Below, piece by piece: positions 17,991 through 23,417 of a stretch of DNA of 23,813 nucleotides. The notes under the pieces are model-generated. The model saw nothing but the letters and a program-made list of their open reading frames with translations, did no database searches and was not told the origin of the DNA. The DNA is from a virus, in the IMG/VR virus record IMGVR_UViG_3300038701_002211, positions 1 through 23,813 of that record; one strand, written 5' to 3'. How positions within the stretch are numbered: position 1 is the stretch's first letter; every line of letters begins with the position of its first letter. Both the position numbers and the translations under genes were made by a program.

Positions 17991-18006
17991 CCCCATCAGG
18001 CCAAAT

Positions 18007-18020
18007 TGAGCTTCGGCTCA
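18007..18020 (+). other. UUCG-loop hairpin upstream of sheath gene
   Basis: TGAGC pairs with GCTCA around a TTCG loop, the C(UUCG)G arrangement known for extra stability. It lies in the 66-base gap between the DUF1353 and sheath genes. No T-run follows, so it is not a classic terminator. It could be an RNA processing or stability element at the start of the tail-shaft genes. I found no convincing -35/-10 pair and no P2-type TGT-N12-ACA activator site in the gap. Confidence 0.4.
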
Positions 18021-18056
18021 TCCTCAAAATCCACCGCAATTTTTAGGAGATTGCAC

Positions 18057-19505
18057 ATGACCGAGCTACAAGCCGGCATTAAACATATCCGTGACGGTGT
18101 TGAGCCTCAGGTCATCAACACGGCGGATATGAGCGTCATCGGAATCATCGGCACAGCTCCTGCTGCGGATGACTCTATTTTCCCGCTCAATACGCCTATT
18201 CAGGTTGACGCGAGCGACAAGTTCAAACTCTTGGGCTTAGGCACGACTGGCACTCTGCCTGATGCCATCAAGGCGGGAACCCGCAATGTCGTGGTGCGCG
18301 TTGAAGACGACGCCTCTGCCGCCACCGTCATCGGGAATATGCTTGGCTCTCAGGCAGCAGGTAGCGGCGTGTGGGCATTTCTCGACGCTACGGATGACCT
18401 TGGCATCACGCCTCGGCTTCTGATCGCGCCTGGCTACACTTCACAAGCTGCTGCTGGCTTGGTCTCGATCAATGTCGCAAATGGCGGCGAAGGCTACACG
18501 AGCGCAACGATCGCCCTGAGCGGTGGGGATGGCACCGGCGCCACGGCTGAGGCCATCATCGTTGATGGTGAGATCGTGACAATCGCACTGACATCGGCCG
18601 GCACTGGCTACACATCGGCGCCCACGATCACCATCACGGGTGACGGCTCCGGCGCTGCAGCGACAGCTGTTCACTCAACAGCGGGTAATGCCGTCTGCGC
18701 GATCATGCCAACGATTTGCCGGAAGCTGAGTGCTATCTTCCTGCCCGAAGGCCCGACTGACAGCCGAGCGAATGCGCTGACATGGCTTGAAGCTCTTCCT
18801 GCGTCTGAGTTCATCGCGCACCCGCTCCGCCAGACGGTTACTGTGCAGTCGGGATCAAGCCTTGTTGAAAAACCGGCATCTCCATTTGTGGTCGCTGGTT
18901 GGGTCAATCGCGATGCTGAGACAGATGGCGTTCCAACTCGAGCCGCAGCAAATATGCCGTTGGAGGGTATTGTGGGTGTGACGCCATCAATCCCGTTCGA
19001 CATCACAGATGGCTCAAGCCTTGGTCAGCAGGATCTGGAAAAATCTTTCGGCATCATTGTTCAGGGGCAGACTGGTAGCGCGACGACGCTCACGGACAAG
19101 GGCTTTTCGTTTTGGGGAACCGACACGCTGTCGGAATCCAGCGAGTTCAAATTCGCGAACGTGCTGCGAATGCGGCTCTTCATCCACCTCACGCAGGTTC
19201 GGACGGTCCGGGTTTATCTTGGCAAATTCAACATTACGACCCAAACGGTGCAGGCGATCCTGAACACAATGAAGAGCCAGCTCTCTCAACTGAAAGCTCA
19301 GGAATACATTCTTGATTACCGTCTGAACTTCAATCCCGACCACAACCTGCCAGGCGAACTCCGCGCCGGGCAGATCGACACGATAATCAATGTCGAAGAA
19401 CCGCCCGTTCTCAAGAAAATGATCATCCGCTCGCGTCGTTATGAACAGGCTCTGACAGCACTTTCTCAGACCATCTCAACGCGCCTGCGCACGTTCGTGA
19501 ACTAA
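18057..19505 (+). CDS. FI: Tail sheath protein with inserted repeat domain
   Basis: A 482-aa contractile sheath subunit (P2 FI is 396 aa). Its rings surround the tube and shorten on injection. Typical sheath parts are the N-terminal HIRDGVEPQVI arm and SVIGIIGTAP (26-35), RLLIAPG (120-126), and the C-terminal core FANVLRMRLFIHLTQ (366-380) with DYRLNFNPDHN and GELRAGQIDTIINVEEPP. Between RLLIAPG and the helix NAVCAIMPTICRKLSAIF lies an insertion (about 137-206) of two Gly-rich repeats, GEGYTSATIALSGGDGTGATA and GTGYTSAPTITITGDGSGAAA. The ATG at 18057 has AGGAGA seven bases upstream; a TTG start at 18006 would run through the hairpin and is rejected. The tube gene follows 19 bases later. Confidence 0.93.
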   Translation: MTELQAGIKHIRDGVEPQVINTADMSVIGIIGTAPAADDSIFPLNTPIQVDASDKFKLLGLGTTGTLPDAIKAGTRNVVVRVEDDASAATVIGNMLGSQAAGSGVWAFLDATDDLGITPRLLIAPGYTSQAAAGLVSINVANGGEGYTSATIALSGGDGTGATAEAIIVDGEIVTIALTSAGTGYTSAPTITITGDGSGAAATAVHSTAGNAVCAIMPTICRKLSAIFLPEGPTDSRANALTWLEALPASEFIAHPLRQTVTVQSGSSLVEKPASPFVVAGWVNRDAETDGVPTRAAANMPLEGIVGVTPSIPFDITDGSSLGQQDLEKSFGIIVQGQTGSATTLTDKGFSFWGTDTLSESSEFKFANVLRMRLFIHLTQVRTVRVYLGKFNITTQTVQAILNTMKSQLSQLKAQEYILDYRLNFNPDHNLPGELRAGQIDTIINVEEPPVLKKMIIRSRRYEQALTALSQTISTRLRTFVN

Positions 19506-19524: not shown

Positions 19525-20064
19525 ATGAAAAATTCACACCTGACTCTGACGGGCGTATCGCTGTATTGCGGTGATGCAGATCCGAACGATGCAATCTACC
19601 TCACATTGAAATCCATCCAGCTTCCCGATCTTCAGGAGAAGATGATTGAGATCTCCGGTGCAGGCGCCCCGATGGATTTCGAGGCCGGCACCCGCCAAAT
19701 GAACGCCCTGATGCTGTCGTTCTCGCTCCACGGCTTCAATCCAAACGTGGATAAGCACTTCATGTCGCCGACCGGAAAGCGCTTGAAATACACCATCCGC
19801 GGAAACCTCTACGACTCTCGCGAGCAGGTTGACCAATCCTACGTGGGTGTTGTCGAGGGCCGGATGACGAAGGCGACCCCATCGCAGTTTGAGCGATCGT
19901 CCGGGACAGATTTTGACTATGAAGTCCGCAGCATCTCGTCATACGAATACTCCATCAATGGTGGCGAGAAATTCTATAGCAACCTTTTCGAAGGCCCGGC
20001 TGCCACCCGCGTTGATGGCGTTCCTGTCCATCAGGATTTCGCCGCAAACTTGGGGCTTCTGTAA
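19525..20064 (+). CDS. FII: Major tail tube protein
   Basis: A 179-aa tube subunit of the P2 FII family (P2 FII is 172 aa). Stacked hexamers form the inner pipe for DNA. Family landmarks are ISLPDLQEKMIEISGAG-like sequence near 29-46 (QLPDLQEKMIEISGAGAPM), FSLHGFNPNVDKHF (about 66-79), the middle hairpin IRGNLYDSREQ (about 90-100), the VEGRMTKATPSQFERSS segment (about 110-126) and YEVRSISSYEYSINGGEKFY (about 132-151). AAAGGA lies nine bases before the ATG. It directly follows the sheath and precedes the chaperone gene, the usual order in P2-like tails. Confidence 0.93.
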   Translation: MKNSHLTLTGVSLYCGDADPNDAIYLTLKSIQLPDLQEKMIEISGAGAPMDFEAGTRQMNALMLSFSLHGFNPNVDKHFMSPTGKRLKYTIRGNLYDSREQVDQSYVGVVEGRMTKATPSQFERSSGTDFDYEVRSISSYEYSINGGEKFYSNLFEGPAATRVDGVPVHQDFAANLGLL

Positions 20065-20067
20065 ATC

Positions 20068-20439
20068 ATGGAAAACCCTGAGGTTGAGCAAAATGATGAC
20101 GGGCCGAAAGTGGCCCGCATTGTTTCCAAAACGCCGCGCGAGAAGACCGTCAATTTGTCGTGGCCGGTGGAGTTTGATGGCAAGCTCTATGAATCCGTCA
20201 CCATCAAGCGCATCAGCGGTAAAGAGGTTAGGGACTATTTCGAGCTTTTGGCGGATGAAGATAACGAGGGGGATGTCATCCCTCCATTTCTGGAAAACAT
20301 CCCGCAAGAAGTCTGGGACTGTCTGGATGACGACGATCGCTTCCTCATCGAGGAGCAGTCTGAGGATTTTATGCCCCGGCGATTGAAGGCTTTGATTCAA
20401 TCCGCCCCTGGAACATCGAGCGATACGCCGGAATCGTAG
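20068..20439 (+). CDS. E: Tail assembly chaperone E
   Basis: A 123-aa protein in the position of the tail assembly chaperone between tube and tape measure. These proteins coat the tape measure before the tube polymerises around it. The middle VNLSWPVEFDGKLYESVTIK-like stretch (about 29-48), followed by RISGKEVRDYFELL (about 48-61), fits the Mu gp41/P2 E type of chaperone (P2 E is 91 aa). The N-terminus is acidic and disordered. The C-terminus after DFMPRRLKAL is short and Ser/Thr-rich. The -1 frame below this tail is open and protein-like, so a longer E+E' form is expected. The weak ribosome site suggests coupling to the tube gene. Confidence 0.85.
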   Translation: MENPEVEQNDDGPKVARIVSKTPREKTVNLSWPVEFDGKLYESVTIKRISGKEVRDYFELLADEDNEGDVIPPFLENIPQEVWDCLDDDDRFLIEEQSEDFMPRRLKALIQSAPGTSSDTPES

Positions 20440-20603
20440 CCAAAGCATTCTCCACTCCGATCATGGATGTTCTGGGGTGGGACTATTTTCGCATCATCCG
20501 GCTTCTGGCTGATGCGCTGAATTCTGAGCGTGGGTTCTATGTTCAAGATCCCGCGCCAGAAGCCCTTCGCAAACGAGGTATTGGACTGTGGCACGCACGC
20601 TAG
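20068..20603 (+). CDS. Chaperone fusion E+E' by predicted -1 frameshift
   Basis: The -1 frame is open from 20364 (after TGA at 20361-20363) to TAG at 20601-20603, past the E stop. Its sequence looks like real protein: PWNIERYAGIVAKAFSTP, then IMDVLGWDYFRIIRLLADAL, and it ends GIGLWHAR. It has no good start of its own; the ATG at 20463 lacks a ribosome site. Slippage would give about 178 aa (P2 E+E' is 142). Two places suit a one-base slip on a single tRNA: TTTT at 20367-20370 (codon TTT before ATG) and CCCC at 20405-20408 (codon CCT). Neither is a classic heptamer such as T-TTT-TTG. A nearby downstream RNA structure was not worked out. The fusion overlaps the tape measure start by 16 bases. 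Confidence 0.7.
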
Positions 20604-22771
20604 TCGGCGAACTTATTCTTACGGCTCAGGACAAGATGAGCCCGAAAGCAAGGGCGGCAGCGGACACGACCATTTCCGCTCTGAACCGGATTGATAGACG
20701 CGCGGCAGCCCTCGGTCGCGCGAGCTGGGGCGCTGGCTTCCAAACCCAGCTACAAAAACTCCGCCTTTCGACCACCGATATGCGAAAGGTTGAGACCTCT
20801 TGGAATCAGCTGATTGCTAATCTGGACAAAAACAACATTCGCGGTGCGATGCGAAAGCAGAACATCTCGAACTGGAAAACCTCGACGGTTTCTCACTTTG
20901 GTGCAGTTAAGGCAGCGGCCCGAGACGCTGAAGAGCGTCAAGTTGCGATGTTCCGTACTGTGGAAAAAGAGGCCAGAGCGCACCAACAGCGTATGAAAAA
21001 AATCAACGATTCCCTTGCGACATCCGTGCGCCCTGCGCTCGTTGCCTTTGGCGCTTACACTGGCGTTTATGCAGGTGGCCTTGCTGCACGCTTCGCAGCC
21101 CATGCAGGCGGCTCGAGAATGCGAGAACTTTACCGCCAAGACACGGGCGGCTTGAACGAACTCGAGCAGGAAAAGATCACAAGCCGCTCGCTAGATCTCG
21201 GGCGCAAATACCCGTCCATGAACACTGTCGAAATCATGGAGCTATTTCGTGTCACCCGGAACCTCATGGGCGACGTGGACCGTGCCAGCGCAATCATTGA
21301 AGAGCTCGTAAAATCCTACATCGCGATCCAGTCAGCGCAGGGAACAAACGTCGCTGACAGCGCTCTCGCAAAAGTCCTACGCGGTATCGACAATCTCGGC
21401 CTGAACAAAGATGGCAAGGCCGGCGAAGATCTTGTGATCAGCACACTTGATGCACTCACTCGAGCTGCGCAGGTCGAAGGTGTCGACTTCGCTGTGGAGA
21501 GTATTCTGCAATTTGCCAGACGGTCCAAAGTTGCAGGCCCAGCAATGGATTCAGAATTTATCGGTGCAGTCGCGCCAGCCCTCATTCAAGACTCCGGTGC
21601 AGACCAAGCAGGCAACGCTCTCGCCATGGTCTTTAAATCCTTCGCCATCGGCAATGGCACAAACACCGCCTCCAAACGCAATCGCGAGGCCCGGAAAGCC
21701 ATTGGCATTCTTTCGGATGACGGCCGCACTGTGATCGAAAGCGATATGCTCGGCAAAAACCCCTACGACTGGGTGAAGCAAATACTTGTGCCCGCCCTGA
21801 AAAATTCAGGGGTCGATATGGGCAATCCAACGGAGATTGCAAAGGAAGTTGGCAAGCTGACCGGCAACACCAACGCTTCAGGCATCCTCACCCGCATGAT
21901 CACCCAGCAAGAGCAGATAGACCGATCCATTCGCCAATATCGTGGGGCCGTGGGAATCGATGACGCCATCAATGCCCGCAATAAAGACCCATTCGTGGCG
22001 TTCTCAGGCCTCACATCTGCACTTCAGAACTTATCGGCAGCGGTTCTGCCAATGGAGACGATCACAAGCGGCTTGAACTCACTCACGGACGGCCTGAACA
22101 GTCTTGCGGGTATCTTTGAAGGCGATAGCACCCTCGCCAAATTGGGAGCTGTTGCGGGCATCGGTGGGGCAGGCTTTGCCGCCTATAAAGGCGGCAAGGG
22201 CATTGTCGGACTGATCGCGGCCGGGCCAGAACTTCGCCAAGCAGCGCAAGAATTAAAAGCCGCAGCGAGATCAATGGACGGCAGCGATGGCAAGAACAAG
22301 AAGAGCAATAGCAAGGGCTGGGGGCCGATCGCAGGATATGGTGCCGCTCTACTTGCTTGGCTGGGAATGGAAGCGGGAAAGCAGTATCTGGCGCAGGGCA
22401 ACCGCGACCGTATTTCGCACATGAACAAGGTCCGCCCAACAGGCAACGGGCCTACTCAGCCCACCGTGCACTCATACCGCGGAGCTGAATCAGCATCGAT
22501 GTCGGCTCTTTCCAAAAATGGCATGGAGATCGACGATTATAGAGATGCCTGGCGCCACAAAGACATTCCTACTGAAGAGATCCGGCAAGCCGCGCAGTTG
22601 GTGAAAAGGCTCGACACAACCGTCACGCCGAATGTTCAGACAGCTGCCATCGATGCTGCCCAAGGCAAAGCGGAGAAGCTGCTTAACACCCTTCGCCAGA
22701 TCGGGCCAACGCTCGCTCAGAGTTCAAGCTCAATAGACAATGCGTTTTCTGATGTGGGGGCAGCGCCGTAA
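20588..22771 (+). CDS. T: Tail tape measure protein
   Basis: A 727-aa tape measure that sets tail length and is expelled during injection (P2 T is 815 aa). The GTG start has GAGG nine bases upstream. The N-terminal 140 residues are charged and helical. Three hydrophobic, Gly/Ala-rich segments lie near residues 147-175, 514-548 and 577-601, as expected for parts that insert into the host membrane. The section SRSLDLGRKYPSMNTVEIM (about 199-217) matches the tape-measure core shared by many contractile and non-contractile phages. If about 1.5 angstroms of tail per residue applies, the tail would be roughly 110 nm. No lysozyme or peptidase domain is visible. The E' frame ends inside the first codons. 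Confidence 0.93.
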   Translation: MARTLVGELILTAQDKMSPKARAAADTTISALNRIDRRAAALGRASWGAGFQTQLQKLRLSTTDMRKVETSWNQLIANLDKNNIRGAMRKQNISNWKTSTVSHFGAVKAAARDAEERQVAMFRTVEKEARAHQQRMKKINDSLATSVRPALVAFGAYTGVYAGGLAARFAAHAGGSRMRELYRQDTGGLNELEQEKITSRSLDLGRKYPSMNTVEIMELFRVTRNLMGDVDRASAIIEELVKSYIAIQSAQGTNVADSALAKVLRGIDNLGLNKDGKAGEDLVISTLDALTRAAQVEGVDFAVESILQFARRSKVAGPAMDSEFIGAVAPALIQDSGADQAGNALAMVFKSFAIGNGTNTASKRNREARKAIGILSDDGRTVIESDMLGKNPYDWVKQILVPALKNSGVDMGNPTEIAKEVGKLTGNTNASGILTRMITQQEQIDRSIRQYRGAVGIDDAINARNKDPFVAFSGLTSALQNLSAAVLPMETITSGLNSLTDGLNSLAGIFEGDSTLAKLGAVAGIGGAGFAAYKGGKGIVGLIAAGPELRQAAQELKAAARSMDGSDGKNKKSNSKGWGPIAGYGAALLAWLGMEAGKQYLAQGNRDRISHMNKVRPTGNGPTQPTVHSYRGAESASMSALSKNGMEIDDYRDAWRHKDIPTEEIRQAAQLVKRLDTTVTPNVQTAAIDAAQGKAEKLLNTLRQIGPTLAQSSSSIDNAFSDVGAAP

Positions 22772-23187
22772 TGCTTTACGCTCTTGGTCCGGTTCTCTTT
22801 GACATAAAAGTCAATCCTCGGTCGGTCGAGGAGTCCGAAGAGAGCGCATTTGCCGTCCATGAGGTGGTTGGGACAGGGCCGGTCTATGAAGACATGGGTG
22901 AAGGGCAGGCGACCTTCTCCCTGTCGGGCAAGATCTACCCCGAAGAGTTCGGTGGCTTGGCTGGCATTACGGCGCTGAAGGCGGCTCGTGTGGCCAAGAC
23001 TCCGGTACCCCTCATTCGCGGTGATTTTGTTCCACAAGGTTGGTTCCTCATCAATTCACTTCGCGCAGGCCACGGCATGATCAACGAATGGGGCGTAGGT
23101 CGAGAAGTCGACTTCGAGGTCGAATTGTTCCGCACTTCCACGCCCGGCGCGGGACAGGCCGCAAGCATATTGAGGTTATTCGGATGA
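22771..23187 (+). CDS. U: Tail protein U
   Basis: A 138-aa protein of the P2 gpU family (P2 U is 159 aa), which acts near the tail tip and is needed for tail completion. Typical features are the opening MLYALGPVLFDIK, the core strands ATFSLSGKIYPEEFGGLAGI (about 50-69), and the late part IRGDFVPQGWFLINSLR with a GVGREVDFEVEL strand. The start overlaps the tape measure stop by one base (TAATG) and the end overlaps X by four (ATGA), so T, U and X are probably translated as a coupled set. Confidence 0.92.
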   Translation: MLYALGPVLFDIKVNPRSVEESEESAFAVHEVVGTGPVYEDMGEGQATFSLSGKIYPEEFGGLAGITALKAARVAKTPVPLIRGDFVPQGWFLINSLRAGHGMINEWGVGREVDFEVELFRTSTPGAGQAASILRLFG

Positions 23188-23417
23188 GCCCATTTATCAT
23201 CGCAACCCCATCGTATGCAGGGCAATCTCTCCCGAGTTTAATTTGGGCCACGCTGCAGCGCCAGCCGTCCGGGCTTTATGAGGAGGTATTAGACCGTCAG
23301 CCCGAACTGGCTGATATGGAGGATGGCCTCCCACTCGGCACTGAGGTCCGGATTTATGCTGAAGAAGCTGTCGAGCCGAAGGCCGCGGCGCAAACCGTAA
23401 TTCGCCTCTGGGACTGA
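23184..23417 (+). CDS. X: Tail protein X (LysM-like)
   Basis: A 77-aa protein of the P2 gpX family (P2 X is 67 aa), a small LysM-like protein between U and D. The family pattern is visible: GQSLPSLIW near the start, the helix GLYEEVLDRQPELADM (about 31-46) and GLPLGTEVRIYAEEA (about 49-63), where P2-type members read L-P-x-G-x-x-V-x-L-P. The ATG at 23184 forms an ATGA overlap with U. A longer frame from 23040 is rejected because it would lie inside U. It probably helps position the spike or hub at the tail tip. Confidence 0.9.
   Translation: MSPFIIATPSYAGQSLPSLIWATLQRQPSGLYEEVLDRQPELADMEDGLPLGTEVRIYAEEAVEPKAAAQTVIRLWD

Follow-up and report, generated by a model that had tools for sequence, protein, structure and literature searches.

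Does the tail chaperone gene E of a P2-type phage yield one protein or two, and, if a second and longer product is made by a ribosomal frameshift, at which bases does the ribosome slip? This question is raised by a viral DNA stretch of 23,813 nucleotides (IMG/VR record IMGVR_UViG_3300038701_002211; hereafter, the window), for which the original prediction was a −1 frameshift producing an E+E' chaperone, with the slip at either TTTT (20367–20370) or CCCC (20405–20408). Our analysis indicates that a programmed −1 ribosomal frameshift, close to the end of E, very probably gives rise to E+E' in the window. The predicted frameshift is supported by homology, by position, by the selection acting on E' and by the conservation of the slip site in about 80 loci.

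The window belongs to a contractile-tail phage of the P2 type. As in the P2-type gene pair, tail tube and tape measure genes flank the locus and a −1 ORF overlaps the end of E (Table 1). E itself weakly matches the E/41/14 chaperone family (Phage_TAC_7, PF10109; 16.7 bits, E 0.008, below the cut-off of 25) and matches the tail protein family phrog_166 with an E value of 4.9e-4. The tape measure protein has a weak match to the tail protein family phrog_788, and its first 16 nt are shared with the end of E'. Between the gpU-like gene and the next gene, a short ORF (23187–23417, of uncertain start, with TTG 23040 listed) occupies the position of P2 tail gene X. Residues 145–228 of the tail sheath (18438–18689) form an inserted Gly/Thr-rich repeat domain that resembles stretches of other virion proteins (phrog_701, phrog_460, and phrog_708).

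Table 1. Features of the E/E' locus and its surroundings in the window.
Feature	Position	Strand	Basis or detail
Tail sheath	18006–19505		phrog_23
Tail tube protein (FII)	19525–20064	+	PF04985, 51.5 bits
E, zero-frame tail assembly chaperone, 123 aa	20068–20439	+	ORF, stop TAG 20437–20439
GAGGAG, Shine-Dalgarno-like	20349–20354	+	12 nt upstream of T_TTT
Putative slip tetramer T_TTT	20367–20370	+	Zero frame GAT TTT ATG
Predicted E' extension, −1 frame, 77 codons after the shared Phe	20370–20603	+	Stop TAG 20601–20603
Predicted stem-loop	20378–20406	+	10 bp, one bulge, 8-nt loop; 7 nt after T_TTT
Tape measure protein, GTG start	20588–22771	+	ORF; position between E/E' and gpU
gpU-like tail protein	22771–23187	+	PF06995, 75.6 bits

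Relatives were gathered with E as the main probe, so that the search would not prejudge the question of E'. Viral contigs yielded L001–L004, L008, and L010–L012, and bacterial genomes, in a search centred on a Rhizobium genome, yielded L017–L019, of which L018 has Rhizobium sp. Root274 as its host. A profile added many loci from the Rhizobiaceae, its order and its class, and two further profiles run on viral contigs gave extra loci among L070–L102. With duplicates removed, 81 loci remained, and the slip site could be placed in 77: 67 in a recognised T_TTT or T_TTC class, one with a doubtful T_TTC, and nine with GGGAAAG. No match was obtained by tblastn for the window's E and E' against cultured phages, or for the relatives' E against phages and against plasmids, and no relatives were recovered with the tape measure as probe.

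The −1 frame follows a TGA at 20361–20363 and is open for 79 codons from 20364 to the TAG at 20601–20603, which confirms the extent originally given for it between E and the tape measure. Since this upstream stop and the E stop at 20437 limit the overlap, any −1 shift must fall between 20364 and 20437. Past the E stop, the −1 frame runs for 30–67 codons in 77 of 77 loci (median 49, sd 8.4); the +1 frame of the same loci is erratic (3–235 codons, sd 36). Measured from the slip, E' comprises 50–80 codons in the 77 loci, and the −1 ORF overlaps the end of E in all of them. Interruption of the −1 frame by a stop in relatives had been raised as a possible objection, and no such stop occurs among the loci with a placed slip site. 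The window's E' shares 41–48% identity with those of the first four relatives, and the alignments have a common core of roughly F(Y/F)AP..EG..W..(R/E)Y.G.V...F.TPI..V..(M/W).W.EI..WY.EA.

Past the E stop, the dN/dS values of E' are 0.05–0.36 within the L002–L004/L017 group, 0.15 for L026/L027, and 0.14 for L059/L060, and the same changes appear non-synonymous when translated in the other frames. Between L002 and L003, none of the 69 bases of the E/E' overlap differs, as compared with a dS of 0.94 in the upstream E codons, so that synonymous sites appear frozen from the slip site onward. The window and its closest relative, L001, give a dN/dS of 0.54, but they are too diverged for this measure, with synonymous sites near saturation. 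Judged from the close pairs of relatives, E' is under purifying selection, contrary to the concern that the −1 frame might be free of it. Comparison at this level establishes E' as a real, selected coding region that is read in the −1 frame.

The AlphaFold2 model of E', based on a 27-row alignment, contains a confident helical core (pLDDT 94–97, residues 21–50). A Foldseek search of the PDB with this model returned nothing significant, and the window's own E' matched no family in Pfam or PHROGs. A profile search against known chaperone extensions, proposed at the outset as a check, did find a counterpart: in hhalign, the E' profile (A9) aligned with P2 E' at 84.9% (E 6e-6) over 36 residues. 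Moreover, E' of L066 matches PF06528 at 34.8 bits (cut-off 23) and E' of L044 scores just below this cut-off, which links the window's group to P2. At the profile level only, these matches point to homology between E' and P2 E' (PF06528).

The slip site was located with a codon test based on a protein alignment of the loci, which placed no constraint on the nucleotides; codons were then read at the conserved Phe of E. The codon before this Phe specifies Asp, Pro, Ala, Gly, Arg or Val and has T as its third base in 68 of 70 loci; codon usage for these amino acids in the rest of the genes predicts 19.6, shared ancestry being ignored in these counts. The Phe itself is TTT in 67 of 70 loci, versus 55 of 260 (21%) elsewhere, shared ancestry again being ignored. 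Two loci, L040 and L042, have the Phe without a preceding T, seven further loci have Leu in the slip column, and all nine carry GGGAAAG two codons downstream; the T run is thus not kept where another slip site exists. If the whole family uses one site, this site must lie between −4 and +21 of the Phe codon, limits set by the last −1 stop upstream and by the earliest E stop. In P2, the slip column reads GGT TTT TTG. Taken together, the comparison identifies TTTT at 20367–20370 as the putative slip site, the first of the two runs originally proposed.

Most relatives carry a heptamer in this column: among the 81 loci are 45 with T_TTT_TTG, six with T_TTT_TTT, two with T_TTT_TTC, and one with T_TTC_TTG. 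The tetramer class, defined by a next codon that cannot re-pair, comprises T_TTT_ATG (seven loci, the window included), T_TTT_ACG (three), T_TTC_ATG (two), and T_TTT_CTG (one). The remaining loci comprise nine with GGGAAAG, one doubtful case (L106), and four without a site. Relatives with TTG, TTT or TTC as the following codon conform to the canonical heptamer X_XXY_YYZ, whereas the T_TTT_ATG of the window does not, because the tRNA for ATG cannot re-pair on TAT; what the window has is a Z_ZZN (U_UU.U) tetramer, T_TTT, with the Phe codon in the zero frame. Several loci stand apart in this column. L034, L035, L036, L039, L040, L042, L045, L046, and L063 have the lambda-type G_GGA_AAG two codons downstream; L044 (GGT TTT ATG GGG CGG AAG) and L038 (GCT TTT ACG GGG CGT CAG) are possible intermediates between site types. 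In L097, the end of E (CCT ATG TTG CCC CGG) has neither T_TTT nor GGGAAAG, and E' stays open for a further 54 codons beyond the E stop. In L108 (Microcystis phage Mae-JY30, PP438422; 5872–6237), an unannotated −1 ORF with the E'-like peptide MTAEIAHVLSTPVPAVRKLPILLFVRMHAQARRIIRATRG follows an E-like gene whose end is without T_TTT.

In the proposed mechanism, tRNA-Phe would decode TTT at 20368–20370 and slip back by one base onto TTT at 20367–20369, and translation would continue in the −1 frame (TAT GCC CCG ...) to the TAG at 20601. The tRNA decoding ATG would be unable to re-pair after the slip, making the site a single-tRNA U_UU.U tetramer. In E. coli, U_UU.C and U_UU.U are barely shifty alone and shift with a downstream structure, and both are used by IS1/IS3-family elements (PMC4066793); a single-tRNA slip at the TTT of the window is thus plausible. 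The suggestion that the signal may be new is only partly borne out: T_TTT_ATG occupies the column of the P2 heptamer T_TTT_TTG, and U_UU.U has a record of shifting in E. coli and of use by IS elements (PMC4066793). Tetramers reach at best about a tenth of the best heptamer in E. coli (PMC4066793), so that the shift rate in the window could be low. Two chaperones with their first 101 residues in common would result, E of 123 aa and E+E' of about 178 aa. The predicted junction is ...EEQSEDF-YAPAIEGF..., whichever ribosomal site slips, and would give, for example, the peptide FLIEEQSEDFYAPAIEGFDSIR in the window; in relatives, junction peptides of the type ...QAFYAPPFEGGGR, with F then Y across the slip, are expected. 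If the two behave like lambda gpG/gpGT and their P2 counterparts, the tape measure would be coated by E, and the tail tube protein would be recruited by a small number of E+E' molecules. We infer the shift, its rate and this division of labour between E and E+E'.

A local stem-loop downstream of the tetramer probably raises the shift rate. Folding of the RNA beyond 20367, which had been recommended, gives this 10-bp structure a dG of −10.8 kcal/mol (shuffle p 0.05; over 40 nt, z −2.05, with 8 of 200 shuffles as good). In an 84-nt fold, it disappears (z 0.08) and an alternative longer-range fold exists; its role thus hinges on local folding ahead of the ribosome. A published rule places effective hairpins 4–10 nt after the motif, with a first G–C pair and at least 7.6 kcal/mol (PMC4066793), and the stem-loop of the window, with its 7-nt spacer, first G–C pair and dG of −10.8 kcal/mol, conforms to it. 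Its action as a stimulator is moderately supported. Across the family, downstream hairpins compared with their own shuffles are stronger at tetramer loci (mean z −1.19; 7 of 13 at p ≤ 0.1) than at heptamer loci (mean z −0.38; 12 of 55), with p 0.013 in a plain Mann–Whitney test that ignores kinship; L038 and L011 (11 bp, spacer 6) are among the strongest. Six independent pairs on the tree gave 2.6 for, none against and 3.4 ties (median p 0.25), that is, the same direction, although six pairs cannot reach significance. Only the plain test is thus suggestive of a hairpin that compensates for the tetramer. The GAGGAG could act as an internal Shine-Dalgarno stimulator; across the family, such sequences showed no clear excess over the numbers predicted from the residues (9 versus 7.2 and 30 versus 22.2).

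The alternative that survives best, very unlikely as it is, holds that the site of the window is a decayed heptamer and that the phage, or a defective prophage, has largely lost frameshifting, leaving E' as a remnant. Indeed, ATG as the second codon abolishes tandem re-pairing and the nearest relative, L001, has T_TTT_TTT (support 100/97). However, E' of the window is still open and conserved, the local stem-loop is present, the T before the Phe codon is kept in 13 of 13 tetramer loci, and the L002/L003/L004/L017 clade retains the same T_TTT_ATG together with an E' dN/dS of 0.05–0.36. Somewhat less likely again is a slip elsewhere in the overlap, for instance at T_TTG near 20392 or at the second run originally named, CCCC at 20405–20408 (C_CCT), C_CC.U being a mildly shifty tetramer in E. 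coli (PMC4066793). This C-run exists where it was reported, but it lies outside the −4 to +21 bracket, and relatives have no conserved C-run there, whereas T_TTT is kept against codon usage. In loci such as L038 and L052, moreover, the E frame ends 21–24 nt after the Phe codon, ahead of the aligned position of CCCC, and this candidate was rejected.

It is very unlikely that E' is a separate short protein made without a frameshift, by ribosomes that either start at ATG 20463 or re-initiate past the E stop (20439). The −1 frame had originally been described as having no start of its own; in fact this ATG is in frame, 24 nt past the E stop, but it is without a Shine-Dalgarno-like sequence, and a large part of the conserved core (GFYAP..EG..W..RY.G.V...FSTPI) precedes it and is kept in the −1 frame. 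A start there combined with a Shine-Dalgarno-like sequence is limited to 3 of the 77 loci, the first half of E' is without a start codon in L002, L003, and L017, and a separate start would leave the T_TTT column unexplained. Transcriptional slippage on the T-run as the source of −1 messages is barely credible, since RNA polymerase slippage needs longer runs and, although a run of eight Ts is seen in L001, there are only four in the window and four to six in most loci.

With the programmed ribosomal frameshift at T_TTT as the preferred reading, the history of the site can be considered. In the tree of E+E' fusions, the window is sister to L001 (support 100/97), and the heptamer and tetramer states require at least nine changes on the best tree. 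Among the relatives, the shorter U_UUU signal appears to have been gained and lost several times. It is conceivable, though we lean slightly against it, that P2-type phages of alphaproteobacteria switch repeatedly between T_TTT_TTN and T_TTY tetramers (T_TTT_ATG, T_TTT_ACG, T_TTC_ATG, and T_TTT_CTG), with a proximal stem-loop offsetting the lost second re-pairing; T_TTT_ATG_GG forms could then be stepping stones to the lambda-type G_GGA_AAG.

The closest known system is E/E+E' of P2 (AF063097). The P2 frameshift was reportedly described by Christie et al. in 2002 and Xu et al. in 2004. As in the window, the P2 genes lie between the FII tail tube and T tape measure genes, and a short E' ends over the tape measure start; the −1 shift at the end of P2 E is the counterpart of the one predicted here. 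T_TTT_TTG of P2 occupies the same column as the slip site of most relatives of the window. Yet, E is longer in the window (123 versus 91 aa), its site is a single-tRNA T_TTT_ATG tetramer rather than a heptamer, and a stem-loop is predicted downstream, whereas P2 and its Burkholderia relatives, which carry TTTTTTG, showed no hairpin (PMC3091744). Sites of the Z_ZZN type in IS1/IS3-family elements likewise combine a single-tRNA −1 slip motif with a hairpin 4–10 nt after it and shift appreciably only with a stimulator (PMC4066793). Those tetramers serve to make transposase fusions, whereas that of the window would serve a tail chaperone in place of the heptamer of sister phages.

In lambda, many short and few extended chaperones are made from G/GT (PMC5009743), and the same short/extended logic would apply to the window, although its tail is contractile and its slip motif differs; nine distant relatives have G_GGA_AAG, the lambda-type site, two codons beyond the T_TTT column. 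Achromobacter phage Mano (MT708550; L107, 5454–5890) has, by annotation alone, a two-piece frameshift chaperone in the same place. The end of its E reads GGT TTT CTC, with T_TTT as the only evident slip motif, of the tetramer type and in a cultured phage; the one-tRNA form is thus not confined to the group of the window. No similarity between the Mano E and E was detected by tblastn. The −2 frameshift of Mu gp41 does not apply, since both the window and its relatives encode E' in the −1 frame. E/E+E' of the window appears to work like that of P2 and is best classed as a divergent member of the P2 type.

The relative amounts of two tail-building proteins are set by tail chaperone frameshifts, which gene finders miss at sites other than standard heptamers; PRFect, by its described motifs, includes no lone four-base run for −1 shifts. 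The present finding amends how this phage group is annotated, its E' being without a family model of its own. The roughly 80 homologous sites, using one or two tRNAs, would offer a natural series on how slip-site strength and stem-loop strength are traded at a conserved output.
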